From an uncultured Pelagibacteraceae bacterium (GTDB taxonomy: Bacteria; Pseudomonadota; Alphaproteobacteria; Pelagibacterales; Pelagibacteraceae): DNA of 64,000 bases. The stretch covers positions 56,748 through 120,747 of the forward strand of contig CABZDW010000002.1 of assembly GCA_902524545.1 (NCBI GenBank), in the 5' to 3' direction. Below are positions 1,634 to 54,960 of the stretch, one piece after another (the stretch's first letter is position 1; each line of letters begins with the position of its first letter). The notes beneath the pieces were generated by a model. The model made no database searches. It was not told the origin of the DNA and saw only the letters and a list, made by a program, of their open reading frames with translations. The translations under genes and the position numbers were made by a program.

Positions 1634-2653
1634 TTATTTAATCTTATCTAAAATAACAATTTCTCGCTTGATAGAGTAACTTATGTTTTCTTGAAAGCTA
1701 CTAATAAGTTCAATTGCTTTGTTTGCGTCTTTTGAACCTAAATTTATAATACAATTCAAAGTTTTTTCTGAAAATCCAAAACCTTGAATATTTTTTATTT
1801 TTAATATTTTTAAATAAAATAATCTAGAAAATTTCCTATAAACAACCAAACTTGTTTTGGAATACCTTTTAAAAAGTATCGTTAGAAAATTATGTATTAA
1901 ATACATAGAATATAAAATAATAGAATTTTTTGATAAATCTTTATAAATATTTCTTGTAGCGAATAAACTTCCAAGGTTTGGAAAAGTATTTTCTTGATAA
2001 AAACCTCTGTGAGCTTTTACCTCTTTGATATAGCTATCTAATTTCAATTGGTTTTCTTTTTTTGTAAATTTAAATTCTATCTTTAAAATGATCAAATTTT
2101 TTTTGTGAAAATAACTACTTCTCCAATTAAAAAATAATTCATCTTTTCTTCTTTTATATATACTTCCATATTCATCCATAAAAGTTACTGAAGTTAAAAA
2201 GTCTGAGATACAAGAGCCATAAGATGATGCATTCATAAAAACTCCACCTCCAACAGTTCCCGGAATTCCTACCAATCCCTGAACTCCTGAAAAACCTCTT
2301 TTAGTAAAAAAATTAGCAAATCTACTGATTGAGGTCCCAGCACCAACAGAATAAACATTTGAAGAAATTTGATCAATATTTTGAATTTTTTGTAAATTTA
2401 TTATCGGCGTATAAATATCCCCGTCTCTAATTAATGTGTTAGATATATTTCCTAAAATATAATAAATAATTTTTTCTGATTTTAGAAAAAAGACTATATC
2501 TTTTACTTCTTCAGTATTAGACGGGTTTATGTATAATTTAATTTTTCCACCAGCTTTAATCCAAGATTTAAAACTTAGGTCAAAATTTTCTTTGAAAGAA
2601 ATATTATTTTTTACTAACCATTCTCTACACTTATTTATTAAATTTTGATTCAT
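1634..2653 (-). CDS. MurB-like FAD-binding protein (UDP-N-acetylenolpyruvoylglucosamine reductase family)
   Basis: GAGTSISRFANFFTKRGFSGVQGLVGIPGTVGGGVFMNASSYG and NLGSLFATRN motifs. Confidence 0.8.
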   Translation of the reverse strand: MNQNLINKCREWLVKNNISFKENFDLSFKSWIKAGGKIKLYINPSNTEEVKDIVFFLKSEKIIYYILGNISNTLIRDGDIYTPIINLQKIQNIDQISSNVYSVGAGTSISRFANFFTKRGFSGVQGLVGIPGTVGGGVFMNASSYGSCISDFLTSVTFMDEYGSIYKRRKDELFFNWRSSYFHKKNLIILKIEFKFTKKENQLKLDSYIKEVKAHRGFYQENTFPNLGSLFATRNIYKDLSKNSIILYSMYLIHNFLTILFKRYSKTSLVVYRKFSRLFYLKILKIKNIQGFGFSEKTLNCIINLGSKDANKAIELISSFQENISYSIKREIVILDKIK

Positions 2654-5411: not shown

Positions 5412-6050
5412 ATGAAAAAAATCATAATATTTTCAGCAGGATCCCTTTCTAGAGAGATTTTAGAACTAATAAATTTTATTAATCAGAGAAAAAAAATATA
5501 TGAAGTGGTAGGATTTGTTGATGATAAACTTTTTAAAACTAAATCTAAATTAGCTGGAATTAAAATTTATAACTCCAAGAAATTTCCAAATAAAAATATT
5601 TTTGGAATTTGTGGAATTATGAACCCCCTAATGAGATCTAAAGTGATAAAAAAAGAAGGTAAAAAAATTAAATTTGTAAATATTGTCCACCCAAACGTAT
5701 GTATTCCAAAAACTTTTAAAATGGGCAGAGGAAATGTTATATTTGGCAATGTACACATTAGTTTTGATGTTAAGATTTCAAATTTTACTATTATTAGCAA
5801 TTTTTGTGATTTGGGACATAATTTAATTTCTGGAGATTATCTAACATGTATGCCAGGAACAATAATAGGCGGGAATTGCACATTAGGAAAGAATGTTTTT
5901 TTTGGTAGTGGTTCAGTTGTTCACCAAAATGTTAATATTGGTGATAATACACATATTGGCTCAAGATCGTACTTAACATCTGATTTAAAGAAAAATTACG
6001 CAATAATAAATTATCCTAGGCAAATTATTAAAAATATTGATAAAAAATAA
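5412..6050 (+). CDS. neuD: NeuD/PglD-family sugar O-/N-acyltransferase
   Basis: N-terminal Rossmann-like segment with VVGFVDD, then left-handed beta-helix hexapeptides (GTIIGGNCTLGKNVFFGSGSVVHQNVNIGDNTHIGSRS). Confidence 0.8.
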   Translation: MKKIIIFSAGSLSREILELINFINQRKKIYEVVGFVDDKLFKTKSKLAGIKIYNSKKFPNKNIFGICGIMNPLMRSKVIKKEGKKIKFVNIVHPNVCIPKTFKMGRGNVIFGNVHISFDVKISNFTIISNFCDLGHNLISGDYLTCMPGTIIGGNCTLGKNVFFGSGSVVHQNVNIGDNTHIGSRSYLTSDLKKNYAIINYPRQIIKNIDKK

Positions 6051-7151
6051 CTATTTCAAAATTTTAATTATTTCTTTTTTTGTATTGAGTAATGCATTCT
6101 TTTTAAAATAAGGATTATTATTTTTTTTAATCATCTTTAAAAATTCTTTGGATCTAGTTTTTAATATAGCTTTTTTTATTTTTTTGATATCATATCCCAC
6201 ATCTATAACACTTCTTGATCTAGGTCTGCCTTTTTGTCTATCCCCAATGTTTATAGAAGGCTTATTTAAACCTGGAATTTCAGATATTCCACTGGATGAA
6301 TTTCCTATTACACCATTTGAAAGTTTTACAAGAGAAAAATAGTATTTTGTCCCATAATCCTTTATGAAAAATATGTTTTTCTTATTGTTCTTTGTTTTGT
6401 TTATTAATTTTAAAATTTCTTTACTTCCTGGATCATTATTAGGTCTACAGATAAATATTGATGTTTTATCAAGACCTTTGATGCTCTCAAATACTTTTTT
6501 ATAATCTTTAATATTATTTTCTTTGTCCGTATGAAATGTTAATACATAGTTATATTTGCTTAGCTTTACGTTATACTTTTTTTCAACTTTTTGTTTATTA
6601 TAAAAATTTTTTTTGGAAAAGACATCATTCAATAAACTTCCATAAGAAAACACATTTTCTCTTCTAAAGCCAAGATTAATTACATTTTTTTTATGGTTAA
6701 TGTTGCTCGTAAAATGATAATTTGAAAATATAGAAATTCCGTCTCTATATTTGTTATCAAGCGAGCCTTTTGTTACTTCACCTCCATAGAAGTGTGCTAT
6801 GTTAATCTTTTTAGAATAGGCAACAAAAGAGCAAATTAGTATTTCAGATCTGTCACCAAAAAGTATTAACAAGTCAGGTTTTATTTTATTAATTATCTTG
6901 TTAAATTTATCTAAATAAATTGAATTTAATTTAAAAAAGTCAATATTATTGACATTTTTGATCTTAGAGAAAATTAAATTTTTAATTTTGGAATTTTTAA
7001 TATTATTAATTGTTAAACCAAATTTTTTGTCAAAATGTGTACCAGTACAAAAAAGATAACAATTATAAATATTTTGTAATTTTATAATCAAATCTTTTTG
7101 CAAATTAAAATCTGATCTATCTGAAGTTATGAAAAGTATTTTTTTTTTCAC
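6051..7151 (-). CDS. neuC: UDP-N-acetylglucosamine 2-epimerase (hydrolysing), NeuC family
   Basis: LLILFGDRSEIL, IAHFYGGEVTKGS, GVIGNSSSGISEIPGLNKPSINIGDRQKGRPR. Confidence 0.88.
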   Translation of the reverse strand: MKKKILFITSDRSDFNLQKDLIIKLQNIYNCYLFCTGTHFDKKFGLTINNIKNSKIKNLIFSKIKNVNNIDFFKLNSIYLDKFNKIINKIKPDLLILFGDRSEILICSFVAYSKKINIAHFYGGEVTKGSLDNKYRDGISIFSNYHFTSNINHKKNVINLGFRRENVFSYGSLLNDVFSKKNFYNKQKVEKKYNVKLSKYNYVLTFHTDKENNIKDYKKVFESIKGLDKTSIFICRPNNDPGSKEILKLINKTKNNKKNIFFIKDYGTKYYFSLVKLSNGVIGNSSSGISEIPGLNKPSINIGDRQKGRPRSRSVIDVGYDIKKIKKAILKTRSKEFLKMIKKNNNPYFKKNALLNTKKEIIKILK

Positions 7152-8167
7152 TGTTTGATAAGCTCATCCTTATTGTAATTTTTTTTTGATTTTTTCCCAA
7201 TTATCACGGGATATAACATAGGAGATAAACCTGAACCTGGTCTTTTTGAGGTAATATTTTTATGAGTAAACTTTTCACCTTTCATGATTTTTTTGGCAGC
7301 GACTAAAGATTTTCTAGCAGCTATAATATTTTTCTTTTCACTATTTGTTACGTTTTTATCTTTAGTTCCTAAAGCTATTTGTAGATCTCTAATATTTTTT
7401 ACTAATTTAATTAGTTCCCTTGGTTCTAAACTTGAACTGTGATCAGGACCCTTCATTTTTTTACTTATTGTTATGTGTCGTTCAATAATTTTAGCTCCCA
7501 AGCTTACAGCTGCTAGTGAAACAATATTTCCATCAGTATGATCCGAATACCCGACTTCACATTTGAACTTTTTTTTAAGACTTAACATGGCATTTAAATT
7601 TACATCCTTTAAGGGTGTTGGATAAGCTGTGTTACAATGTAGAAGTATAATATTGTTTTTTTTAGTACCATTTTTTTGCAAAACTTTAATCGCATCTTTA
7701 ATCATATTCAAATTTGACATTCCTGTTGATAAAATTATTTTTTTATTAAGTTTACCTAATTCCTTTAAATATGGATAATTAGTTATTTCACTTGATGGAA
7801 CTTTAAAATAGTCCTGTTTTAATTTATATAAAAATTTAATGGACTCTATATCAAATGCAGATGAAAGAAATTTTACATTTTTTTTTTTGCAAAATTTTTT
7901 TAAACTTGGAAAAATTTTGAAATCAAACGAGAGTTTTTTAGCCATAGCGAGTTGACTATTATTTTTTATGGGAAAATTATTTTTTTGGTATATTGCTTGT
8001 TTTGCATTCTCAGAGATATGTAAACTTGGTATAGAGGTTTGAAATTTAACATAATCTACTTTTGCTTTGGCAGCTATCTCAATAAGTTTTTTCGCTAGTT
8101 TTAATTTACCATTATGATTAACACCTATCTCAGCTATTATGATAGTCTTACTTTTTTTCATGGTCAT
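7148..8167 (-). CDS. neuB: N-acetylneuraminate (nonulosonate) synthase, NeuB family with C-terminal SAF-like domain
   Basis: IIAEIGVNHNGKLKLAKKLI, ILSTGMSNL, VGYSDHTDG, IIERHITISKKMKGPDHSSSLEP, KRPGSGLSP. Confidence 0.92.
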   Translation of the reverse strand: MTMKKSKTIIIAEIGVNHNGKLKLAKKLIEIAAKAKVDYVKFQTSIPSLHISENAKQAIYQKNNFPIKNNSQLAMAKKLSFDFKIFPSLKKFCKKKNVKFLSSAFDIESIKFLYKLKQDYFKVPSSEITNYPYLKELGKLNKKIILSTGMSNLNMIKDAIKVLQKNGTKKNNIILLHCNTAYPTPLKDVNLNAMLSLKKKFKCEVGYSDHTDGNIVSLAAVSLGAKIIERHITISKKMKGPDHSSSLEPRELIKLVKNIRDLQIALGTKDKNVTNSEKKNIIAARKSLVAAKKIMKGEKFTHKNITSKRPGSGLSPMLYPVIIGKKSKKNYNKDELIKQ

Positions 8168-8295: not shown

Positions 8296-9663
8296 ATGTC
8301 TTTTTTTTTTAATACTATTTCAAGTTCTAGAAATAAAAGTTTTATTACAGATGGTGAAATCTCGTATGATTATAAAGACATAAATAAAAAAATTAAAAAA
8401 TTAAAAAAAAATTACAAAATAGAAGGACTGATATTAAATATTACCAAAAACACAATTGATTTTTTAATTGGATATCTTTATTTTTTTGAAACTTCTAAAC
8501 CACAACTGTTAATAGATCAGCAAACAGGAGTTAAGAGTATATTGCAATTAATTAGAAGATTTAAGCCAAATTATTTGTTTGTACCCAATAATATAAAAAA
8601 TGAATTTAATTATAAAAAAATTTTCGAGTTTGGAAAATATGTCCTATTAAAAACAAACTTTGGTAAAATTAAAATAAATAAAAATATTGCATTTCTAATG
8701 CCAACATCTGGTAGTACAGGTGATCAAAAATTTGCGAAAATCTCTTTTGACAATATAAAGAGTAATACCAAAAATATAATTAAATATCTTAAGTTAAAAA
8801 ATAATGATTGCACGATAACCACACTTCAACCATCTTATTCTTATGGTATGTCGATATTGAACACTCACATACTCGCAAAATCTTCAATTATTCTCACTGA
8901 TAAAACATTAGTCCAAAAAGAGTTTTGGGAACTTTATAAAAAGTTTCCAGTTACTAACTTTAATGGTGTACCTATTTTGTACGAATTCATGATTAAATTC
9001 GGATTAAACAATTTTGATAAAGATAATCTTAAATTTCTTACATCTGCAGGAGGCGCTTTAGATCAAAAGACTTTAATAGAAATTATTAAATTTTGTGAAG
9101 AAAATAAAATAAAATATTATTCAATGTATGGTCAAACTGAAGCATCTCCAAGAATTTCATATTTGTTATATCCTAAATATAAAAACAAAATTGGAAGCAT
9201 TGGTAAGGTGATTCAAGGTGGGAGTTTATTAATTAAGAAAAATGAAATTATTTATAAAGGTAGCAATATATTTGGTGGCTATTCAAACGGACACAAAGAT
9301 TTAAAAAGATTTAAAAAAAATGGCATTCTTAAAACTGGTGACATTGGCTATCAAGACAATGATGGTTTTATTTTTATTACAGGAAGAAGTAAAAGAATCG
9401 CTAAACTTTTTGGAGTACGACTTAATCTAGATTTAATAGAAAATAATTTAAAAAATAAAAATATTAAATGTGCAATTATATCTATAAAAAGCAAGGTAAT
9501 AATATTTCATACTAACAAAACTAATAATAAAAAAATATTAAAATATTTGTTCGAAGAGTTTAAAATTATTAAAACAAATGTTGAATTTAAACACATTAAA
9601 CAAATTCCAAAAACAAAGAACAATAAAATAAATTACAATGAATTAGAGAAAAAATTAATATGA
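8296..9663 (+). CDS. AMP-dependent synthetase/ligase (ANL superfamily)
   Basis: TSGSTGDQKFAKIS, YSMYGQTEASPRISY, ILKTGDIGYQDNDGFIFITGRSKR motifs. Confidence 0.88.
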   Translation: MSFFFNTISSSRNKSFITDGEISYDYKDINKKIKKLKKNYKIEGLILNITKNTIDFLIGYLYFFETSKPQLLIDQQTGVKSILQLIRRFKPNYLFVPNNIKNEFNYKKIFEFGKYVLLKTNFGKIKINKNIAFLMPTSGSTGDQKFAKISFDNIKSNTKNIIKYLKLKNNDCTITTLQPSYSYGMSILNTHILAKSSIILTDKTLVQKEFWELYKKFPVTNFNGVPILYEFMIKFGLNNFDKDNLKFLTSAGGALDQKTLIEIIKFCEENKIKYYSMYGQTEASPRISYLLYPKYKNKIGSIGKVIQGGSLLIKKNEIIYKGSNIFGGYSNGHKDLKRFKKNGILKTGDIGYQDNDGFIFITGRSKRIAKLFGVRLNLDLIENNLKNKNIKCAIISIKSKVIIFHTNKTNNKKILKYLFEEFKIIKTNVEFKHIKQIPKTKNNKINYNELEKKLI

Positions 9664-10712
9664 TTAAAAATAATTTAAGTAATATTTATAATTCAACCAA
9701 AAATAAAAAATATAAAGCTTTATTGGATAAAGTAAAAATATTGAATAAACATCATTTTAATAAATCAGCAGAATATAATAAAATAGTTAAATCACTTTAT
9801 CCAAACTTTGAAAAAATAAAAAAATTAGAAAAACTCCCAATGTTACCAGTTAGATTGTTTAAAAGTTTAGAGCTTAAAAGTATTGAGAATAAAAACATTT
9901 ATAAAATAATGCATTCATCAGGAACATCTGGATCAGGTTTATCGAAAATATATTTAGATAAAGAGAATGCAAAAAAACAAATCGAGGTTCTAAATAAAAT
10001 TTTTTCATCCTCTATTACATCACAAAGACTACCAATGTTGGTAATTTCAAAGAAACCTGAGCATGATAAGGATGCTTTCAATGCTCAAACAGCTGCAATT
10101 TTAGGATTTTCATTATTCAGCAAAAAAAATTTTTATTTGCTAGATAAAAAAAATAATATTGACCTTAAGGAACTTAAAATTTTTAAAGAGTATGTAAAAA
10201 ATAAACCTTTTTTTATATTTGGCTTTACATCAAAAGTTTATGAAAACTTGATATTAAAATTTAATTTTCAAGATAAATTTTTTAAAGACTCTATATTAAT
10301 TCATGGAGGGGGTTGGAAAAAATTAGAAGATATTAAAATATCCAACAGAGAATTTAAAAAGATATTATATAAAAAATTAAAAATTAAAAATATTTATAAT
10401 TATTATGGTTTAATTGAACAGACTGGCTCAATATTTATCGAGTCTCCAATTTGTGGTTATTTTCATACAACGACATATTCTGATATCATTATAAGAGACG
10501 AAAATTTTAATGTCTTAAAAAAAAATCAAAAGGGGTTAATACAGTTAATATCCTCTATTCCAACAAGTTATCCAGGCCACAATATTTTAACTGAAGACTT
10601 AGGCGAAATTATAGGTGAAGATGATTGCAAATGTGGCTTAAAGGGAAAATATTTTAAAGTTTATGGCAGAATTGAAAAAGCAGAAATTAGAGGTTGTAGT
10701 AATTTTACATGA
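9660..10712 (+). CDS. LuxE-like acyl-protein synthetase
   Basis: LPMLPVRLFKSLEL, MHSSGTSGSGLSKIYLD, IYNYYGLIEQTGSIFIE, DLGEIIGEDDCKCGLKGKYFKVYGRIEKAEIRG; ATGA overlap with the upstream ligase. Confidence 0.82.
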   Translation: MIKNNLSNIYNSTKNKKYKALLDKVKILNKHHFNKSAEYNKIVKSLYPNFEKIKKLEKLPMLPVRLFKSLELKSIENKNIYKIMHSSGTSGSGLSKIYLDKENAKKQIEVLNKIFSSSITSQRLPMLVISKKPEHDKDAFNAQTAAILGFSLFSKKNFYLLDKKNNIDLKELKIFKEYVKNKPFFIFGFTSKVYENLILKFNFQDKFFKDSILIHGGGWKKLEDIKISNREFKKILYKKLKIKNIYNYYGLIEQTGSIFIESPICGYFHTTTYSDIIIRDENFNVLKKNQKGLIQLISSIPTSYPGHNILTEDLGEIIGEDDCKCGLKGKYFKVYGRIEKAEIRGCSNFT

Positions 10713-11881
10713 TAAAAATACACAATATAAACTCTATAATTTCAAACAAGATAAAACCTAAAAAACTAAAACCTTTTGATGACAAAATGATAAATTTTTT
10801 GTCAGAGTTGTCAACTCGTGTGACTAAATCAACCGAGGCAAAAAAAAATCCAGAAATTATGAGTTTTGCATTTTGGATTAGAAGAAACAATTTAATCAAA
10901 TTGAAAAAAAAATATGAAATAAAAAAATTAAACAAAAGAAAAGGAGTGGGATTGTTATTTCATATACCACCATCAAATATAGTATCGAATTTTGCTTACT
11001 CACTAATTTTTGGACTACTATCAGGAAACACTAATATAATTCGTTTACCAGAAAAGTCAGAGTTAATGGCTAAAGTATTAATCAAATCCATGAATAACAT
11101 AAAAAAAATAAGACTTGATATAAGCAAATATATTTATTTTATTAAAAATTATACAGATGATGATCGCTCTAATCGTTTGTCAAGTATTTCTGATGCAAGA
11201 TTAATTTGGGGTGGAGATAAAACAGTTAATTTATTTAAAAAATTTAAAACAAAAAAAGGTTGTAGAAATTTATATTTTACAGATAAATACTCTCTTTCAA
11301 TTTTTGATAGCAATAAGGTCACTGTTGCAAATAAAGTAGATTTAGAACATTTGATAAGGAATTTTTATAATGATACTTATCTAGTTGATCAAAATGCTTG
11401 CTCTTCTCCTAATTTAATAATTTGGACTGGAAGTGAAGTAGAAAAGGCAAAAAAAATTTTTTGGTCAAAATTACTTGAAGTAGTAAAAAAAAAATATAAG
11501 CTAAGTTTTTTTTCAGCAGTTGATAAATATACAAGCTCAGCTATATTTTCTGCAAAAAATAATTCCATATCAAATATAATAAATAACGAAAATTTATTAA
11601 TTAGAATTAAGTTAGATAAATTGAACTATAATTTAGAAAACTTTAGGGGAAAATGGGGACTGTTTTATGAATTTTCTAACAAGAATAAATTTAAGGTAAA
11701 TCTCCCTTTTTCAAAAAAGTATCAAACCATAACTTCTTATGGATACTCAAAAAAACAACTAGAAAAATTGAAAAAAAAATCGTACTTATCATCTGTAAAT
11801 AGAATTGTTCAAGTTGGTTTATCAATGGAAATAGATTTATTTTGGGATGGTTACAACATATTATATAAGCTGACAAAATAG
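10709..11881 (+). CDS. LuxC-like acyl-CoA/acyl reductase (aldehyde dehydrogenase-like)
   Basis: LLFHIPPSNIVSNFAYSLIFGLLSGNTNIIRLPEKS, ARLIWGGDKTVNLF, LVDQNACSSPNLI (putative catalytic Cys); ATGA overlap with LuxE-like gene. Confidence 0.85.
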   Translation: MIKIHNINSIISNKIKPKKLKPFDDKMINFLSELSTRVTKSTEAKKNPEIMSFAFWIRRNNLIKLKKKYEIKKLNKRKGVGLLFHIPPSNIVSNFAYSLIFGLLSGNTNIIRLPEKSELMAKVLIKSMNNIKKIRLDISKYIYFIKNYTDDDRSNRLSSISDARLIWGGDKTVNLFKKFKTKKGCRNLYFTDKYSLSIFDSNKVTVANKVDLEHLIRNFYNDTYLVDQNACSSPNLIIWTGSEVEKAKKIFWSKLLEVVKKKYKLSFFSAVDKYTSSAIFSAKNNSISNIINNENLLIRIKLDKLNYNLENFRGKWGLFYEFSNKNKFKVNLPFSKKYQTITSYGYSKKQLEKLKKKSYLSSVNRIVQVGLSMEIDLFWDGYNILYKLTK

Positions 11882-11888
11882 AATTTTT

Positions 11889-12347
11889 ATGGAACTAAAT
11901 ATTAATCAAATACTTGAATATCAAAAGAATAGACCTCCATATTTAATGATTGATCATGTAAACAAAGTAGTGCCAGGAAAAAGTGCTGAGGGTTATAAAA
12001 TTTTAAAAAATGATGAGTGGTTTTTTAAAGTTCATTGGGAAAATGATCCAAACATGCCTGGAATGCTCCAGGTAGAAGCTTTGGTTCAAATGTGTGCAAT
12101 GTCTATATTTACAATAGATGGAAATAAAGGAAAAACGGTTTTGTTAGCAAATGTAAATAATGTAAAATTTAAAAAAAAAATTTTACCTGGTGATAAATTA
12201 TTTTTAAAAACTGAAATCAAATTATTCAAAAGAGGAGTCGCAAATTGTTATGGAGAGGGATATGTAAATGACGACTTAGCTTTAAAAGCTGAGTTCACAG
12301 TCGTATTGACAGAAGAAACACAAAAATATATAAGTCAGGTTAAATAA
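11889..12347 (+). CDS. FabZ/FabA-like hot-dog dehydratase
   Basis: RPPYLMIDHV, HWENDPNMPGMLQVEALVQMCAM, NVKFKKKILPGDKL: FabZ-like pattern. Confidence 0.85.
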   Translation: MELNINQILEYQKNRPPYLMIDHVNKVVPGKSAEGYKILKNDEWFFKVHWENDPNMPGMLQVEALVQMCAMSIFTIDGNKGKTVLLANVNNVKFKKKILPGDKLFLKTEIKLFKRGVANCYGEGYVNDDLALKAEFTVVLTEETQKYISQVK

Positions 12348-12348
12348 A

Positions 12349-13407
12349 ATGCCAATTGCTTCTTCTTTATTAGACAAACCAAGATTAATGAAAAAGCTTA
12401 GAGATTTCTACGCTTACGTCCAAAAAAATGATGGAAAAGTTGGCCAAAAAACCAGAGGTATTGATTTAAATTTTAACAATGCTTGCAATCTGAGATGTAA
12501 ATACTGTTTCACAAATTCTCCAAAAGGAGATCATGTCAAAGAATATTTGGATATAAATGCGATAAGAAAATTAGCTGATGAGGCAGATGAGCTAGGATTT
12601 TTTGAGTTTGATTTACAGGGTGGGGAGTTATTATTACAACCAAAGAAATTATTTCAAGTTCTTGAAGCCATTAGACCTGAAAGATTTTATATGTACTTGA
12701 CAACAAATGGATTTTACTTAGATGAAAAAATGGCAAAAAAGCTTGCTGAGTACAAAGTAAGTAGAGTCTCGGTGAGCATAGATAGTATGGATGAAAAAGT
12801 GCATGACGAGATTAGAGGAAGAAAAGACTCATGGAGACGTGCTCTTGATGGATTAAAACATGTTAAGGATGCCGGGATGGATCCATACTTAAATGTTACA
12901 GTTGGACACTATAATGCAAATACAGATCACTTTAAACAACTTTTAGATTATTCAAGAGACCAGAAATACAAAACTTTGTTGAATGTGGCTGTTCCCTCTG
13001 GAATGTGGCAGAAGATGGACGAAATAATATGTGATGATAATGATAGAGTTTATTTGAGGAAAATAAGAAAAGAATATAAAAATTTAGTGAGAAATATTTG
13101 GAACCCATTTGACAAAAATAATGAAAAAATTTTAGGTTGTACAACAGTTAACAGAGTTTATGTAACTCCGATAGGTGATGTGCTTGTCTGTCCTTATGTT
13201 CACATAAAAATAGGAAATATATTTAAACAGCCTCTAAAAGATATAATTAAATATGGATTTAGTATTAAGTACTTTAACAATCATAGTGATTTATGTTTAG
13301 CAGGTGAAGACAAAGAATTCATAAATAAATTTATGACTTTTCCAGGCCAAACAATTTTTAATCCTGCAAAAGCAGAGGAAATATTTTCTAAAGAAGATTT
13401 TGTTTAA
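12349..13407 (+). CDS. Radical SAM protein with SPASM-like C-terminus
   Basis: CX3CX2C (NACNLRCKYCFTN), FDLQGGELLL, C-terminal GDVLVCPYVHIKIGNIF. Confidence 0.9.
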   Translation: MPIASSLLDKPRLMKKLRDFYAYVQKNDGKVGQKTRGIDLNFNNACNLRCKYCFTNSPKGDHVKEYLDINAIRKLADEADELGFFEFDLQGGELLLQPKKLFQVLEAIRPERFYMYLTTNGFYLDEKMAKKLAEYKVSRVSVSIDSMDEKVHDEIRGRKDSWRRALDGLKHVKDAGMDPYLNVTVGHYNANTDHFKQLLDYSRDQKYKTLLNVAVPSGMWQKMDEIICDDNDRVYLRKIRKEYKNLVRNIWNPFDKNNEKILGCTTVNRVYVTPIGDVLVCPYVHIKIGNIFKQPLKDIIKYGFSIKYFNNHSDLCLAGEDKEFINKFMTFPGQTIFNPAKAEEIFSKEDFV

Positions 13408-14154
13408 ATGCTTCTTAAAAATAAAGTGGCAGTTATTACCGGATCAAACCGTGGTATAGGTAAACAAACTTTAGAAATTTTTTCAAAAAATGGTGCAGAT
13501 GTTATTGCTTGTGTAAGAAAGTCGAGTCATGACTTTATAAAATATACAAAGGAACTCACAAAAGAGACAAAAAATTCAATCGATATAGTAAATTTAGATT
13601 TACAAAGTGAAAATAGTGTCAAAGATGCAATAAAAGAGATTGCATCTATGAACAAAAAAATTGATATTTTGATCAATAATGCAGGTTCTATATTCACTGG
13701 TATTTTTCAAATGACTCCTATTTCAAAACTTAAAGAGATCTTTGAAATAAATTTTTTTTCGCAAAGTATTTTCGTTCAAGGTCTTGTTAAGACTATGATT
13801 AAAAATAAAAGAGGTAGTATTATATACATATCTTCCTCATCAGCGATTGATGCAAATGAGGGGAGAAGCGCTTACTCAGCTTCAAAAGCTGCTATAATTG
13901 CACAAGCCAAAACATTATCAAAAGAACTTGGAGTATTTAATATCAGAGTAAACTGTATAGCCCCCGGGTTGACACAAACAGATATGATGGAAAATAACAC
14001 TCCAGATAATATTTTGGAGGAAGTGAAAAAGACTATACCTTTAAAAAGAGTAGGAGATCCAAGTGAGATTGCGAATGTGGTACTTTTCCTCGGGTCAGAT
14101 CTTTCGACTTATTTAAGTGGGCAAACAATCAGAGTTGATGGAGGGATGAATTAA
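13408..14154 (+). CDS. SDR-family oxidoreductase, FabG-like
   Basis: AVITGSNRGIGKQT, LINNAGS, YSASKAAI, GQTIRVDGGMN. Confidence 0.9.
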   Translation: MLLKNKVAVITGSNRGIGKQTLEIFSKNGADVIACVRKSSHDFIKYTKELTKETKNSIDIVNLDLQSENSVKDAIKEIASMNKKIDILINNAGSIFTGIFQMTPISKLKEIFEINFFSQSIFVQGLVKTMIKNKRGSIIYISSSSAIDANEGRSAYSASKAAIIAQAKTLSKELGVFNIRVNCIAPGLTQTDMMENNTPDNILEEVKKTIPLKRVGDPSEIANVVLFLGSDLSTYLSGQTIRVDGGMN

Positions 14155-14987
14155 TGGAAAAAAAAAATTTTAAGAATGAAATTACTAATTTTTCTAATGA
14201 TATGAGATCAAATATTTTAGAAATGTCGCTGTCAGCAGGTTCGAGTAGCTCACATTTTGGAGGAGCGTTATCTATAGTTGAAATTTTGTCGACATTATAT
14301 GTATCACAACTGAAATATGATCCTAAAAACCCATTATGGGAAGGCAGAGATAGATTTATTTTAAGTAAAGGTCATGCATGCTTAGCATATTATTCTGCTT
14401 TATGCCAAATAGGATATGTAAAATTTAATGATTTATTAACTTTTGAAAAAGATGACTCAGATTTTTTAGGTCATCCAGTTAAGAATGAAAAACTAGGCAT
14501 AGAATTTTCTAATGGATCTTTAGGAATGGGTTTATCGTTGGGTATTGGTGTTGCATATGCTCTAAAAAAAAAACAACTTGATAATTTTGTTTATGTATTA
14601 ATAGGTGATGGAGAATGTAATGAGGGGTCAGTTTGGGAGGCTGCAATGTCGGCACCTAATCTTAAATTAGATAATTTATATGCTATAATTGACAGAAATA
14701 ATTTTCAGCAGACTGGCTCAAATTCAGAAATTATGAATTTAGATGATTTAAAACTTAAGTGGTCTAGTTTTGGTTGGCATACGGATGAAATAGACGGTCA
14801 TGATATTGAGTCTCTTACAAATTATTTCGATAAATCAAGGAATATTAAAAAACCCAAAGCGTTAATAGCTAACACAATCAAAGGCAAGGGTTTTTCTTTT
14901 TCAGAAAACAATAATGATTGGCATCATAAAATTTTAACTAAATCCACATACGAGAATGCTTTAAAAGAGACAAAAAAAATTAAATAA
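14154..14987 (+). CDS. Transketolase, N-terminal (ThDP-binding) subunit
   Basis: DRFILSKGHACLAYY, IGDGECNEGSVWEAAMSAPNLKLDNLYAIIDRNNFQQTG (GDG...N ThDP motif). Confidence 0.93.
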   Translation: MEKKNFKNEITNFSNDMRSNILEMSLSAGSSSSHFGGALSIVEILSTLYVSQLKYDPKNPLWEGRDRFILSKGHACLAYYSALCQIGYVKFNDLLTFEKDDSDFLGHPVKNEKLGIEFSNGSLGMGLSLGIGVAYALKKKQLDNFVYVLIGDGECNEGSVWEAAMSAPNLKLDNLYAIIDRNNFQQTGSNSEIMNLDDLKLKWSSFGWHTDEIDGHDIESLTNYFDKSRNIKKPKALIANTIKGKGFSFSENNNDWHHKILTKSTYENALKETKKIK

Positions 14988-14988
14988 T

Positions 14989-15957
14989 ATGATAATCAAC
15001 GAAAGAACTATAAAGTCTTGGTCAATAATAGGACCTAGAGCAACTTTCGGTTTGGCAGCATTAGAATTGGTTAAAGAACACCAGAATATGATGATACTCA
15101 CATGTGATGTTTCTACTTCCGCAGGTCTAGATAGATTTAGAAAAACATATGCATCTAACTACTTGGATCTAGGTATAGCTGAACAGAACATGATCGGAGT
15201 AGCCGCTGGTTTGGCAAGCGAAAATTATAATGTCGTTACTACAACGTTCGCACCTTTTCAAACAATAAGATGTTGTGAACAAATAAAAGTTAATTTTGGT
15301 TATATGAAGAATAAAGTTTGTATGGTGGGTTTGGCAAGTGGCTTAATTTTAGGTAATTTAGGTTTTACCCATTGTTGTATTGAAGATGTTGGAATTTTAA
15401 GAACAATTCCAAATATCACAATTATATCTCCAGCAGACTCTTTAGAGACTGTTAAAGCTTTTCAAGCTGCTTTAAAATATGATAGTTCAGTCTATATAAG
15501 ATTAACAGGTGGATCAAATAATCCAATTGTGTATGATAAAGACTATAATTTTGAAATAGGTAAATCAAATATTTTAAAGAATGGATCAGATGTTGCAATA
15601 TTTTCCTCAGGCTCTGTAACATCAGAGTGTTTAAATGCTGCAAAAATTTTAGATGAAAGTAATATTAGTTGTGCAGTTATAAATATGCACACAATCAAAC
15701 CATTTGATAAAAAAACTTTAGAAAAATATCTTAATGTAAAGTTGATCGTAAGTGTTGAGGAACACAATGTAATAGGTGGTTTAGGGTCTGCAATATCAGA
15801 GAGCCTATCTACTTTTGAAAATTCTCCTAGACAAGTGTTTTTAGGTATAAACGACCAATATACAAAAGGCGGAAGTTATAATTTTTTGAAAAAAAAAAAT
15901 GGAATAGACGAAAATAATATTATATCAACCATTAAAAATAATTTTAATGAGCGCTAG
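14989..15957 (+). CDS. Transketolase, C-terminal subunit
   Basis: YLDLGIAEQNMIGVAAGLA, HCCIEDVGILRTIPNITIISPADSLET, VSVEEHNVIGGLGSA. Confidence 0.93.
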   Translation: MIINERTIKSWSIIGPRATFGLAALELVKEHQNMMILTCDVSTSAGLDRFRKTYASNYLDLGIAEQNMIGVAAGLASENYNVVTTTFAPFQTIRCCEQIKVNFGYMKNKVCMVGLASGLILGNLGFTHCCIEDVGILRTIPNITIISPADSLETVKAFQAALKYDSSVYIRLTGGSNNPIVYDKDYNFEIGKSNILKNGSDVAIFSSGSVTSECLNAAKILDESNISCAVINMHTIKPFDKKTLEKYLNVKLIVSVEEHNVIGGLGSAISESLSTFENSPRQVFLGINDQYTKGGSYNFLKKKNGIDENNIISTIKNNFNER

Positions 15958-16180
15958 TATATATAAAACAATTTTTGCGAAATCATTATCAATTTCAGAA
16001 AAGTTTGATGAGAATTTAAAGTATAATGAAATTCCTGAGTGGGACTCTATTGCCCACATGACACTTATAGCTGAGTTAGAAAATCAGTTCAATATTTCAC
16101 TAGAGACAGATGACATAATTGATTTCAGTTCTTATAAAAAGGGATTTGAAATTTTAAAGAAATATGATGTTAAAATCTAA
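15947..16180 (+). CDS. Acyl carrier protein (stand-alone)
   Basis: 77 aa, acidic, with phosphopantetheine-type motif EWDSIAHMTLIAELENQFNI; overlaps transketolase subunit by 11 nt. Confidence 0.85.
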   Translation: MSASIYKTIFAKSLSISEKFDENLKYNEIPEWDSIAHMTLIAELENQFNISLETDDIIDFSSYKKGFEILKKYDVKI

Positions 16181-16203: not shown

Positions 16204-17088
16204 ATGAACAAGCAACAAAAACAAACCAAGCTCTTTTTTGAAAAAGACGCAATTAATTGGTCGAAAAAATCTTTTTTCCCCAAAAATAATAAACTATTAA
16301 ACACCATACACGAGAGAAATATATATGTAATCAATCTTATTAAAAAAAAGAAACTTTTATATCATTTAGATGTTGGATGTGGTGTGGGAGACTTGGTTTT
16401 TAATAGTTCAAAAATAACCAAAAAATCTGTTGGTATAGATTTTGCAAATGAGATGATTAAAATTGCTAACAAAAAATATAAAAAAAAGAATTTATTGTTA
16501 GAAACCAAATCTATATTTGATTATACTACAGAAATAAAATTTGATTGTATTTCGGCAAATGGATTTATTGAGTATTTATCTATAAACGAAATCTACAACT
16601 TTTTTAAAATTTCAAAAAAACTTCTTAAAATAGGTGGATTTTTGAGTATAAGTTCTAGAAATAGACTATTTAATTTATTCTCACTAAATGAATTTTCTAA
16701 AAAAGAAATTGAGGGAAGTAAATTTAAAATTTTATACAGAGAGGCACTAAATTGCAATAAATCAAAAAACTTAGATGAATTTAAAAAATTTAAGTCAGAT
16801 AAAATAAGTATTATTAACTTTAAACAACCAAATACAGGTATAAACGTTAATGTTAGACATCAATTTACACCATTACAACTTTATTTTACCCTTAAAAACT
16901 TGGGTTATATGATCACAGATATACATCCTATTAATTATCACCCCGTGGTTCCGTCTATTTATAATACTGAAAGAAATTATAAATTTTTTTCAAATAATAT
17001 TTTTAAAAAAAGTTTTAAAAAAAATTTTAATAAATTATCTAATTTGCCTTTTTCTTCGTCTTTTATGATTACAGCAAAAAAAAAATAG
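16204..17088 (+). CDS. Class I SAM-dependent methyltransferase
   Basis: LDVGCGVGDLVFNSSKITKKSVGIDFANEMIKIA. Confidence 0.85.
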   Translation: MNKQQKQTKLFFEKDAINWSKKSFFPKNNKLLNTIHERNIYVINLIKKKKLLYHLDVGCGVGDLVFNSSKITKKSVGIDFANEMIKIANKKYKKKNLLLETKSIFDYTTEIKFDCISANGFIEYLSINEIYNFFKISKKLLKIGGFLSISSRNRLFNLFSLNEFSKKEIEGSKFKILYREALNCNKSKNLDEFKKFKSDKISIINFKQPNTGINVNVRHQFTPLQLYFTLKNLGYMITDIHPINYHPVVPSIYNTERNYKFFSNNIFKKSFKKNFNKLSNLPFSSSFMITAKKK

Positions 17089-52034: not shown

Positions 52035-53032
52035 TAAGAGGTCTTATGAAGGTATTCAGCTATATCACACATCCTATTTGAAAAACCCCATTCATTATCA
52101 TACCACGCTGAGATTTTACCCATATTTTTGCCAACCACATTTGTTAAGCTTGCATCAATAATTGATGAGGCAGGATTATGATTAAAATCAATCGAAACAA
52201 GTTTTTCTTTTGTGATTTCAACAACTTTATTTTTTTTACTAAAGTTCTCAAACGCGGAATTTATTTTTTCAATATTCAAATCTTTTTTTGTACAGAAGAC
52301 AAATTCAATTAATGAAACATTTGGGGTTGGTACTCTCATCGCTACACCCTCTAACTTTCCTTTAAGGGAAGGAATTATTTCACCTATAGCTTTTGACGCA
52401 CCAGTAGAAGTTGGTACGATTGATTGACCAGCAGATCTAGCTCTTCTAGGGTCTTTATGTGAATTATCTAAAATTCTTTGATCGCTAGTAAACGCATGTA
52501 TAGTTGTCATAAAACCTTTTTCTATTCCAAAATTTTCGTTTAAAATATGAGCAACTGGCGCAAGGCAATTTGTTGTGCAAGATGCAGCAGAAATAATTTT
52601 ATCCTCTTTTTTTAATTCAGATTCATTTACTCCAAAGACAATAGTTTTATCTGCATTTTTACATGGAGCTGAGACAATCACTTTTTTTGCTCCATTGCCA
52701 AGATGCGGTTGCAACTTATCTTTAGAATTAAATTTTCCAGTACACTCAAAGACGTAATCGACACCATATTTTTTCCAATTAATTTTATTTAAATCCGTCT
52801 CTTGACCAAAAGAAATTTTGTTTTTATTTACAATAAGATTATTTTCATCATAGCTTATATCTTCTTTAAATTTTCCATGGATTGAGTCATATTTTATAAG
52901 AGTTGAGCAAGTTTCAGAATTTGTTCTATTATTAATATGCATAATTTCTATTTTTTTATTTCCCTCATAAACAGAGCGAAGAATCATTCTTCCTATTCTA
53001 CCCATTCCATTGATACCAATTTTTATTTTCAT
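52034..53032 (-). CDS. gap: Glyceraldehyde-3-phosphate dehydrogenase
   Basis: [67 protein letters not shown]. Confidence 0.97.
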
Positions 53033-54960
53033 AATTTTTCTTTGATTTTCTTTACAATACTCTCAGAATTTAATTTAAAATGATCATAAATTTTTTTATA
53101 CGGTGCACTTTTTCCAAAGTCATTAATTCCAAAATTTAATCCATTTGTACCAGTATATTTTTTCCAATAATTCGTTTCAGAGGCTTCTATAGATACTACC
53201 AGATCGGTTTCACCTAATATTTTTTTTTTGTATTCTTCAGTTTGATGATCGAATATTTTTTGACAAGGCATTGATATGATTTTGGAATAAATACCATCTG
53301 TGGCTAATTTATGACCCACTTCATTTGCTAAACTTGTTTCAGACCCAGTTGCTAAAATTGTTACACTTATATTATCCCTGGTTCTTAAAACTTCATATGC
53401 ACCCAAAGACGATTTATTTTTGAGAGAATTTTCAAGTCTTATAGGATTGACACCTTGTCTGGTTAGTGAAATTACACTTGGAGTATTTTTACTTTCAAGA
53501 GCTAATTGCCAACACTCAAAAGTTTCAATGGTATCTGAAGGTCTAAAAACGTTTAAATTCGGAATAGATCTTAAACTTGTTAATTGTTCAATTGGCTGAT
53601 GAGTTGGGCCATCCTCACCTAAGCCAATAGAATCATGCGTAAATACATAAATGACTCTTTGCTTCATCATCGCAGCTAATCTGATAGATGGTTTACAATA
53701 GTCACTAAATATTAGAAAAGTTCCACCATAAGGAATTAGATTACTGTGTAAGGCTATTCCATTCATAATTCCACACATCGCGTGCTCTCTAACTCCATAA
53801 TGAATATAATTTCCAGAAAAGTTTCCTGGTTTAATTATTTCATGATCTTTAGTTTTAGTATTATTTGAACCAGCTAAATCAGCTGAGCCTCCGATTAAAT
53901 TAGGAAATTTTGCTATAATGTTTAAAAATATTTCAGATGATTTTCTGGTAGCAATCGGTTTTGCATTTTTAAAATATTCAATTTTTGCCTTCTCAATTAA
54001 TTTTTTATATGAACTATAATCTTTAAAATTTGAAAAGTTAACTTTATTTTTCTGAGCTTTTTGTGAAGCCATCTCACCTATCTTTCTCCACTCACTTAAT
54101 AATGTAGCTGGAATCTCAAAAGGCTCATATTTCCATTTAAGTTTTTTTCTTACAAGTTTTATTTCTTCATCACCTAATGGACTTCCATGTGATGATGCTT
54201 TACCCCCTTTGTTTGGAGATCCATAACCGATTGTGGTTTTACATGAAATTGCGATAGGTTTTTTTGATTTTTGTGCTTTTTTTAAAGCTTTGGATATTTC
54301 TTTAAAATTATGACCGTTAATTCTTAAGAAGTCCCATCCGTAGCTCTCAAATCTCTTTTCGTGATCATCTGAAACAGCTAAATTAGTGGGACCATCGATT
54401 GAGATAGAATTATTATCAAATAATAAAATAAGATTCTTTAATTTTAGATGTCCAGCTAAGCTCAACGCCTCGTGACTGACACCCTCCATTAAGCATCCGT
54501 CACCAGCGAGAACATAAGTTTTGTGATTGATCTTTTTTTTCCCTAATTGTTTTTTTAAAATCTCTTCTGATATTGCAAATCCAACTGCGTTTGAGACTCC
54601 TTGTCCCAATGGACCTGTAGTGGTCTCAATACCAGTATTTGGATGATATTCAGGATGTCCAGCACATATGGATTCCAATTGTCGAAAATTTTTAATATCT
54701 TTTAAAGAAACACTTTTGTAACCAGTTAAATAAAGAAGAGAGTAAAGCAACATTGATCCATGTCCAGCAGAAAGAACAAATCTATCTCTATTAATCCAGC
54801 TAGGATTTTTTGGATTAAATTTTAAAAAATCCTTAAAAAGTACTGTAGCAACATCTGCCATTCCCATCGGCATTCCTGGGTGACCTGAGTTCGCTTTTTG
54901 AACAGCATCAATTGAGAGAAATCTAATACAATTAGCTAATTCTTTATAAAATTTACTCAA
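53029..54960 (-). CDS. tkt: Full-length transketolase
   Basis: [87 protein letters not shown]. Confidence 0.97.

Follow-up and report, generated by a model that had tools for sequence, protein, structure and literature searches.

A split transketolase as a possible carbon-carbon bond former in a putative acyl-building gene cassette of a Pelagibacteraceae bacterium

The operon and its surroundings

The window, by which we mean the whole stretch of 64,000 nucleotides analysed here, has a G+C content of 26% and comes from an assembly of an uncultured Pelagibacteraceae bacterium (1.06 Mb, 27 contigs, 89% complete). It contains an operon of nine genes on the plus strand (8296-16180), or of ten if a methyltransferase gene ending at 17088 is counted, in the order LIG, LuxE, LuxC, FabZ-like, radical SAM/SPASM, SDR, TktN, TktC, ACP and methyltransferase. 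Gaps between the nine genes range from -11 to +7 bp, the ACP gene overlapping tktC by 11 bp, and +23 bp lie before the methyltransferase gene. The features are as follows.

5412-6050, plus strand: NeuD/PglD-type hexapeptide sugar acyltransferase (TIGR03570, 125 bits, under the cut-off of 160.8)
6051-7151, minus strand: NeuC, UDP-GlcNAc 2-epimerase (hydrolysing) (TIGR03568, over cut-off)
7148-8167, minus strand: NeuB, nonulosonic acid synthase (TIGR03569, over cut-off)
8296-9663, plus strand: LIG, AMP-binding acyl ligase, first gene of the operon (PF00501, E 3e-22)
9660-10712, plus strand: LuxE-type acyl-protein synthetase with C-terminal acceptor Cys346 (PF04443, E 3e-39)
10709-11881, plus strand: LuxC-type acyl reductase, predicted to make an aldehyde, catalytic residue Cys231 (PF05893, E 2e-22)
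11889-12347, plus strand: FabZ-like hot-dog dehydratase, His49/Glu63 (PF07977, E 2e-22)
12349-13407, plus strand: radical SAM/SPASM enzyme, in a position that a GMC oxidoreductase gene occupies in other cassettes (PF04055, E 1e-30; PF13186, E 2e-5)
13408-14154, plus strand: FabG-like SDR, predicted ketone reductase, directly 5' of TktN (PF13561, E 1e-54)
14154-14987, plus strand: TktN, ThDP-binding half of the split transketolase, 277 aa (Transketolase_N PF00456, E 4e-43)
14989-15957, plus strand: TktC, pyrimidine-binding and C-terminal half, 322 aa (Transket_pyr PF02779, 5e-27; Transketolase_C PF02780, 2e-22)
15947-16180, plus strand: acyl carrier protein, Ser34 in WDSIAHM, directly 3' of TktC (PF00550, E 3e-4)
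16204-17088, plus strand: class I SAM methyltransferase, 23 bp 3' of the ACP gene (PF08242, E 2e-10)
53029-54960, minus strand: full-length housekeeping tkt, for comparison only, 643 aa (426 bits to PF00456)

A preliminary description made from the sequence alone had placed a split transketolase at exactly the coordinates given above, between a FabG-like SDR and an ACP, and an intact tkt at 53029-54960. All of this holds: Pfam domains confirm the two halves, the SDR and ACP genes directly adjoin them, and tkt is a 643-aa open reading frame on the minus strand. Its statement that the operon encodes no ketosynthase stands as well. As the operon starts inside the window, divergently from neuB (8167), no upstream part is missing, and no ketosynthase serving it was found. 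The whole assembly has one PF00109 ketoacyl-synthase, on a different contig, and no match to KASIII; with 89% completeness, this is no proof of absence elsewhere in the genome.

Neighbours of the cassette at 1-20 kb in the window are NeuB, NeuC, the NeuD-type gene, glycosyltransferases and nucleotide-sugar genes, and none of those adjoining it is a flagellin gene. Amid the surface-polysaccharide genes there is also a MurB-like FAD protein (1634-2653, minus strand) that scores under the cut-off of the murB model. Within the operon, G+C steps from 0.23-0.24 in LIG, LuxE and LuxC (8296-11881) to 0.28-0.32 from FabZ to ACP (11889-16180), for which a mosaic origin or stronger conservation is possible.

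Are TktN and TktC really the halves of a transketolase? Of the solved structures, the nearest are 6yak/6yaj, the two chains (N and C) of a split transketolase from Carboxydothermus hydrogenoformans. That enzyme has the same two-chain architecture, and its C-chain is only about 33% identical. An AlphaFold model of TktC (pLDDT 94.8) also has 6yaj as its top fold match. Both halves miss the cut-off of the DXS model (62 and 156 bits against 466), and the transketolase model NF004559 outscores the DXS model. A residue check finds the ThDP-binding GDG...N motif, the donor histidines, and the catalytic Glu and His of a split transketolase. Relatives of TktN were also searched for in viral contigs, and none was found.

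The cassette in other genomes

Genome contigs were scanned for similar loci with TktC of the window and that of a same-genus relative as queries, together with two short peptide patterns. The scan yielded at least 79 loci; they derive from the best 80 matches and are thus a sample of the closest relatives. The nearest homologs are found in Pelagibacteraceae single cells. When well-covered loci are defined as those flanked on either side by 6.5 kb or more, there are 54 of them among the matches listed, and in these TktN occurs in 54, LuxE in 52, LuxC in 51, LIG in 49, ACP in 52 and SDR in 52. On the other hand, LIG, LuxE, LuxC and ACP were found in none of nine control loci carrying other split transketolases of the same order, some of whose contigs are short. 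The cassette is present in at least eight phyla, and its hosts include Pelagibacterales, Elusimicrobia, Planctomycetes, Myxococcota, Burkholderia, Dickeya, Kosakonia, Lysinibacillus, Clostridia, Bacteroidota, Prochlorococcus, Spirochaetes and Rhizobium plasmids. Its spread is patchy: among 60 genomes of the same genus, one other (G023) has a close TktN/TktC relative with LuxE and LuxC. In a tree of 94 rows, a branch of support 100 sets 41 sampled cassette TktC sequences, together with those of loci L106 and L107, apart from other split transketolases and from tkt. TktC of the window belongs to a subclade of 13 rows formed by cassettes of SAR11, Planctomycetes and Myxococcota, whose loci carry FabZ and radical SAM genes wherever the contig is long enough.

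The partner enzymes keep their catalytic residues. C346 of LuxE and C231 of LuxC are invariant in all aligned cassette sequences, S34 of ACP (n=54) and H49/E63 of FabZ (n=31) are conserved to 100%, and the radical SAM cysteines are invariant across cassettes. FabZ is present in 36 loci among the matches listed; a radical SAM gene accompanies it in 22 and a GMC oxidoreductase gene in 11, while no locus has the two together and three lack either. All radical SAM loci and all GMC loci in this sample hold FabZ. Such strict exclusion suggests that two unrelated enzymes do the same job in the FabZ subtype, probably alcohol oxidation. Foldseek matches of the radical SAM enzyme are SPASM maturases, viperin, MoaA and DesII, none of them pointing to a dehydrogenase. 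One SAR11 contig (L038) has two cassette-type radical SAM genes (1246-2304 and 9427-10173), 63% and 92% identical, respectively, to that of the window.

Other genes come and go. The methyltransferase is not conserved across cassettes, and its possible role is O-methylation. Acyltransferases of three unrelated kinds (NeuD/PglD hexapeptide, GNAT and AAC(3)-like) are common beside cassettes, as are DegT or NeuB genes; in L058, a Clostridium locus, there are flagellin-like genes downstream, which were named from their sequence rather than through family models. Loci L036 and L047 contain orthologs of the NeuD-NeuC-NeuB trio of the window within the cassette, the NeuD-type ortholog being 47-49% identical. 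In three distant cassettes, LuxC is followed by an LDH-type dehydrogenase with Arg in place of Gln at position 102, a substitution which favours malate; the window has no such malate-type dehydrogenase. KASIII-type condensing enzymes occur in six or seven cassettes (L062, L074, L075, L077, L088, L101 and L158), with a second ACP in at least some, and these cassettes may build chains by a mixture of the two routes. In L082, L084, L091, L094, L102 and L103 there is a further ThDP enzyme of about 600 aa, of the acetolactate-synthase/decarboxylase type, and Roseburia faecis (L066:594-7063) has a tandem of two distinct split transketolase pairs, only one of which is cassette-type.

Split transketolases outside the cassette are also found in relatives in SAR11. 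In two same-genus genomes (G018, L021:9433-14092; G025, L020:332-4177), a different pair lies directly 3' of a CDP-glucose 4,6-dehydratase gene (over cut-off) and an RfbH-like gene (best model, under cut-off), with a cytidylyltransferase-like gene nearby in L021; this pair is a candidate for making a branched 3,6-dideoxy sugar with a C2 ketol. At four further loci (L017:7149-11121, L018:8431-11283, L019:9511-12361 and L024:7159-9877), the genes of same-order split transketolases are preceded by one or two genes for DegT-type aminotransferases; these loci lie in polysaccharide islands and have no LuxE/LuxC.

What distinguishes the cassette transketolase from its housekeeping counterpart is its active site. 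Residues are numbered here as in E. coli TktA, a reference sequence for which the length and 17 landmark positions were checked; tkt of the window agrees with it at these residues and has HDSIGLGED and SLTRQ. We take R358, S385, H461 and R520 to be the sugar-phosphate ligands and D469 to be the ligand of the acceptor C2 hydroxyl. Among 81 cassette TktC sequences, E411, F437 and H473 are retained in all, R358 in 69 and S385 in 48; H461, D469 and R520 are found in none, with mostly A/G/S, L/S/F and G, respectively, in their places, so that the pentose-phosphate ligand set is incomplete throughout. For comparison, about 28 of 51 other split TktC sequences have H461. On the TktN side, the ThDP and donor residues H26, H66, H261, D155 and N185 are retained in the window and nearly all cassettes, and H100 in 63 of 79. 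The preliminary description had argued for specialised chemistry rather than pentose-phosphate metabolism. That claim is well supported now, since H461, R520 and D469 are lost in every cassette sequence and TktC does not group with pentose-phosphate tkt. Because the catalytic residues are kept, the ThDP-ketol should still be formed, and judging from the residues the acceptor should carry neither a phosphate nor an alpha-hydroxyl; an aldehyde made by LuxC could be such an acceptor. The donor is possibly also non-phosphorylated, such as hydroxypyruvate.

A proposed chemistry and its alternatives

What, then, does the split transketolase do in this cassette? Our preferred reading, at a probability of roughly 0.45, is that it would form the carbon-carbon bond in a conserved cassette for building acyl groups, whose product would be put onto a surface amino sugar. 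The preliminary description had gone from the absence of a ketosynthase in the operon to the ThDP enzyme as a candidate bond former. The absence stands, and the step beyond it can only be inferred because six or seven homologous cassettes hold KASIII as well; the bond-forming role is nevertheless plausible.

The reactions, their order, the donor and the product are inferred as follows. LIG would probably turn an acid into an acyl-AMP and then pass it to ACP, so that the chain is kept as a thioester. LuxE and LuxC would activate a carboxylate and, via two acyl-cysteines, carry out its reduction to an aldehyde. TktN/TktC would transfer a C2 ketol from a ketose or hydroxypyruvate to this aldehyde, lengthening the chain by two carbons and leaving an alpha,alpha'-dihydroxyketone end, whose ketone the FabG-like SDR would reduce. 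Cassettes of the FabZ subtype may alter the oxidation pattern further by means of FabZ and the radical SAM enzyme (or GMC oxidoreductase). Finally, a NeuD/PglD- or GNAT-type acyltransferase would move the acyl group to the amino group of a surface sugar, in the window probably the nonulosonate made by NeuB and NeuC; the NeuD/PglD-type enzyme encoded there is a candidate for this step. The starter may be a C4 dicarboxylate such as malate, which fits, without proving, the presence of two acid-activating enzymes, one for the carboxylate that goes to LuxE/LuxC and the other for the one loaded on ACP. A more specific, ketosynthase-free route to a hydroxylated acyl-ACP, in which LuxE/LuxC would reduce the free end of an ACP-tethered dicarboxylate, the transketolase without its usual phosphate and C2-hydroxyl ligands would add a C2 ketol, and the chain would be reduced to a polyol and transferred to an amino sugar, is in our opinion a rather doubtful, though specific, version.

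The scheme is built on observed facts, namely gene content and its conservation, the single clade, the catalytic residues, and the lost sugar-phosphate and C2-hydroxyl ligands. Speaking for it are the tight operon, the conservation of LuxE, LuxC, ACP, SDR and LIG relative to the control loci, the malate-type LDH in three cassettes, and acyltransferases and NeuB, DegT or flagellin genes as neighbours. The LuxE/LuxC pair is the strongest clue to the acceptor. It is to be noted that two-subunit transketolases with non-sugar acceptors exist, as Rif15a/Rif15b of rifamycin biosynthesis, compared here by description only, is a split transketolase of specialised metabolism that gives a C2 ketol to a non-sugar acceptor (PMC6002545). 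In that case the acceptor is a quinone ketone, and no LuxE, LuxC or ACP partner is described (PMC6002545). Against the scheme, TktN/TktC could act on a nucleotide sugar instead of the LuxC product, KASIII offers an alternative condensing enzyme in some cassettes, the malate-type dehydrogenase is missing from the window, and the fold search gives no pointer to a dehydrogenase for the radical SAM enzyme. Aeromonas cassettes that lack the transketolase (PMC7874193) also count against it, as LuxE/LuxC function there without one.

Could the transketolase make a sugar rather than an acyl chain? It would then join a ketol to a nucleotide-linked sugar at its keto group to give a branched or higher-carbon sugar, and LuxE, LuxC and ACP would build a separate acyl group for the same sugar. 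The pairs directly after CDP-glucose 4,6-dehydratase and RfbH-like genes in SAR11 relatives favour this idea, as do the many cassettes adjoining DegT aminotransferases and dTDP-sugar genes. However, those sugar-linked pairs are outside the cassette clade and without LuxE/LuxC, and the cassette pair is tied to LuxE/LuxC/ACP and not to one sugar pathway, with NeuB in some loci and DegT in others; we regard it as unlikely. Much the same can be said of the idea that the aldehyde, ketol and SDR steps give a free polyol or hydroxyketone in place of an ACP-bound acyl group, so that LuxE/LuxC/transketolase and LIG/ACP are two branches meeting on one glycan. Several cassettes do have a thioesterase (type II or of metallo-beta-lactamase fold) next to LIG or in the interval from LIG to LuxE, and in lux operons the thioesterase LuxD occupies a comparable place. 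Yet the genes form a single tight operon, loci mostly have one ACP with N-acyltransferases near, and no enzyme attaching a free polyol was seen among them.

For NapB/NapD and QncN/QncL, it has reportedly been proposed that a ketose supplies ACP with a glycolyl (C2) starter or extender unit. The overlap of the tktC and ACP genes by 11 bp in the window and the occurrence of ACP at 52 of 54 loci among the matches listed would agree with the cassette transketolase loading ACP in this way. But a lipoyl or E2-like domain, which could oxidise the C2 unit, is not encoded in the operon, and in many cassettes the ACP gene adjoins LIG or SDR instead, which makes such loading quite improbable. As for a redundant pentose-phosphate transketolase caught in a variable region, the retained catalytic and ThDP residues are compatible with it, and the distinct clade, the lost phosphate ligands, a cassette conserved across phyla and the intact tkt in the same genome speak so strongly against it that it hardly deserves consideration.

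Known systems and the meaning of the cassette

Parts of the cassette have been met before in surface-sugar islands. In Dickeya zeae, a gene set between fliA and fliC has been termed sugar and fatty-acid genes for flagellin glycosylation, with no reaction proposed (PMC7575072). Like the window, it comprises LuxC, LuxE, a ligase, a two-part transketolase (tktA, tktB), an SDR (fabG), an ACP (acpP) and a hexapeptide acyltransferase, and homologs of every one of these genes are found in our Dickeya oryzae locus (L057); unlike the window, it is without FabZ or radical SAM and is linked to flagellin, not to NeuB/NeuC. The Aeromonas Group II polar flagellin glycosylation island resembles the cassette in having ACP, 3-oxoacyl-ACP reductase, AMP synthetase, LuxE and LuxC in a surface-sugar island, and differs from it in that no transketolase is described (PMC7874193). 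Such transketolase-free versions in Aeromonas and Enterobacteriaceae islands are known as 'liposugar' genes (PMC7874193, PMC4875605). With the fatty acid reductase of bioluminescence, the cassette shares the LuxC and LuxE families and both acyl-cysteines; unlike that system, the window is without a luciferase, its LuxE scores 56 against a cut-off of 550 for the NCBIfam LuxE model, and the aldehyde is predicted to feed the transketolase. A search of the open literature for a split transketolase together with LuxE or radical SAM gave no match. As far as the open literature shows, what is new here is the breadth of the cassette, its single clade, the consistent ligand loss, the exclusion of radical SAM and GMC, and the proposal that LuxE/LuxC feeds a transketolase.

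Two glycan masses were considered as leads. The Treponema denticola flagellin glycan is said (after Kurniyati, 2017) to consist of a pseudaminic-type sugar with a 2-methoxy-4,5,6-trihydroxyhexanoyl group. The mass calculated for this composition, 450.185, matches the 450.2 Da of the glycan (PMC9481697), and malate plus C2, followed by reduction and O-methylation, would give that acyl group. This is a lead only, and the link was set aside, as cassette-type TktC occurs in just two of 274 Treponemataceae genomes and reduction of 2-keto-3-deoxygluconate could yield the same group. In the flagellin glycan of A. piscicola AH-3, a moiety of 102 Da fits C4H6O3, dihydroxybutyryl, by nominal mass only; it might fit the product of a transketolase-free LuxE/LuxC cassette, and a nominal mass is no proof of it.

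The cassette is widespread in surface-glycan islands of SAR11, cyanobacteria, rhizobia, clostridia, spirochaetes and others, and descriptions of its chemistry have so far gone no further than fatty-acid or liposugar-like. Should the transketolase lengthen an aldehyde that is itself an enzyme product, this would be a distinct mode of acyl-chain building without a condensing enzyme of the fatty-acid type, and a glycan made with it should be heavier by 60.02 Da (C2H4O2) than that of a cassette without transketolase. The ketosynthase-free scheme, if true, would account for polyhydroxy-acyl groups, as a class, on the flagellins and surface glycans of many phyla.
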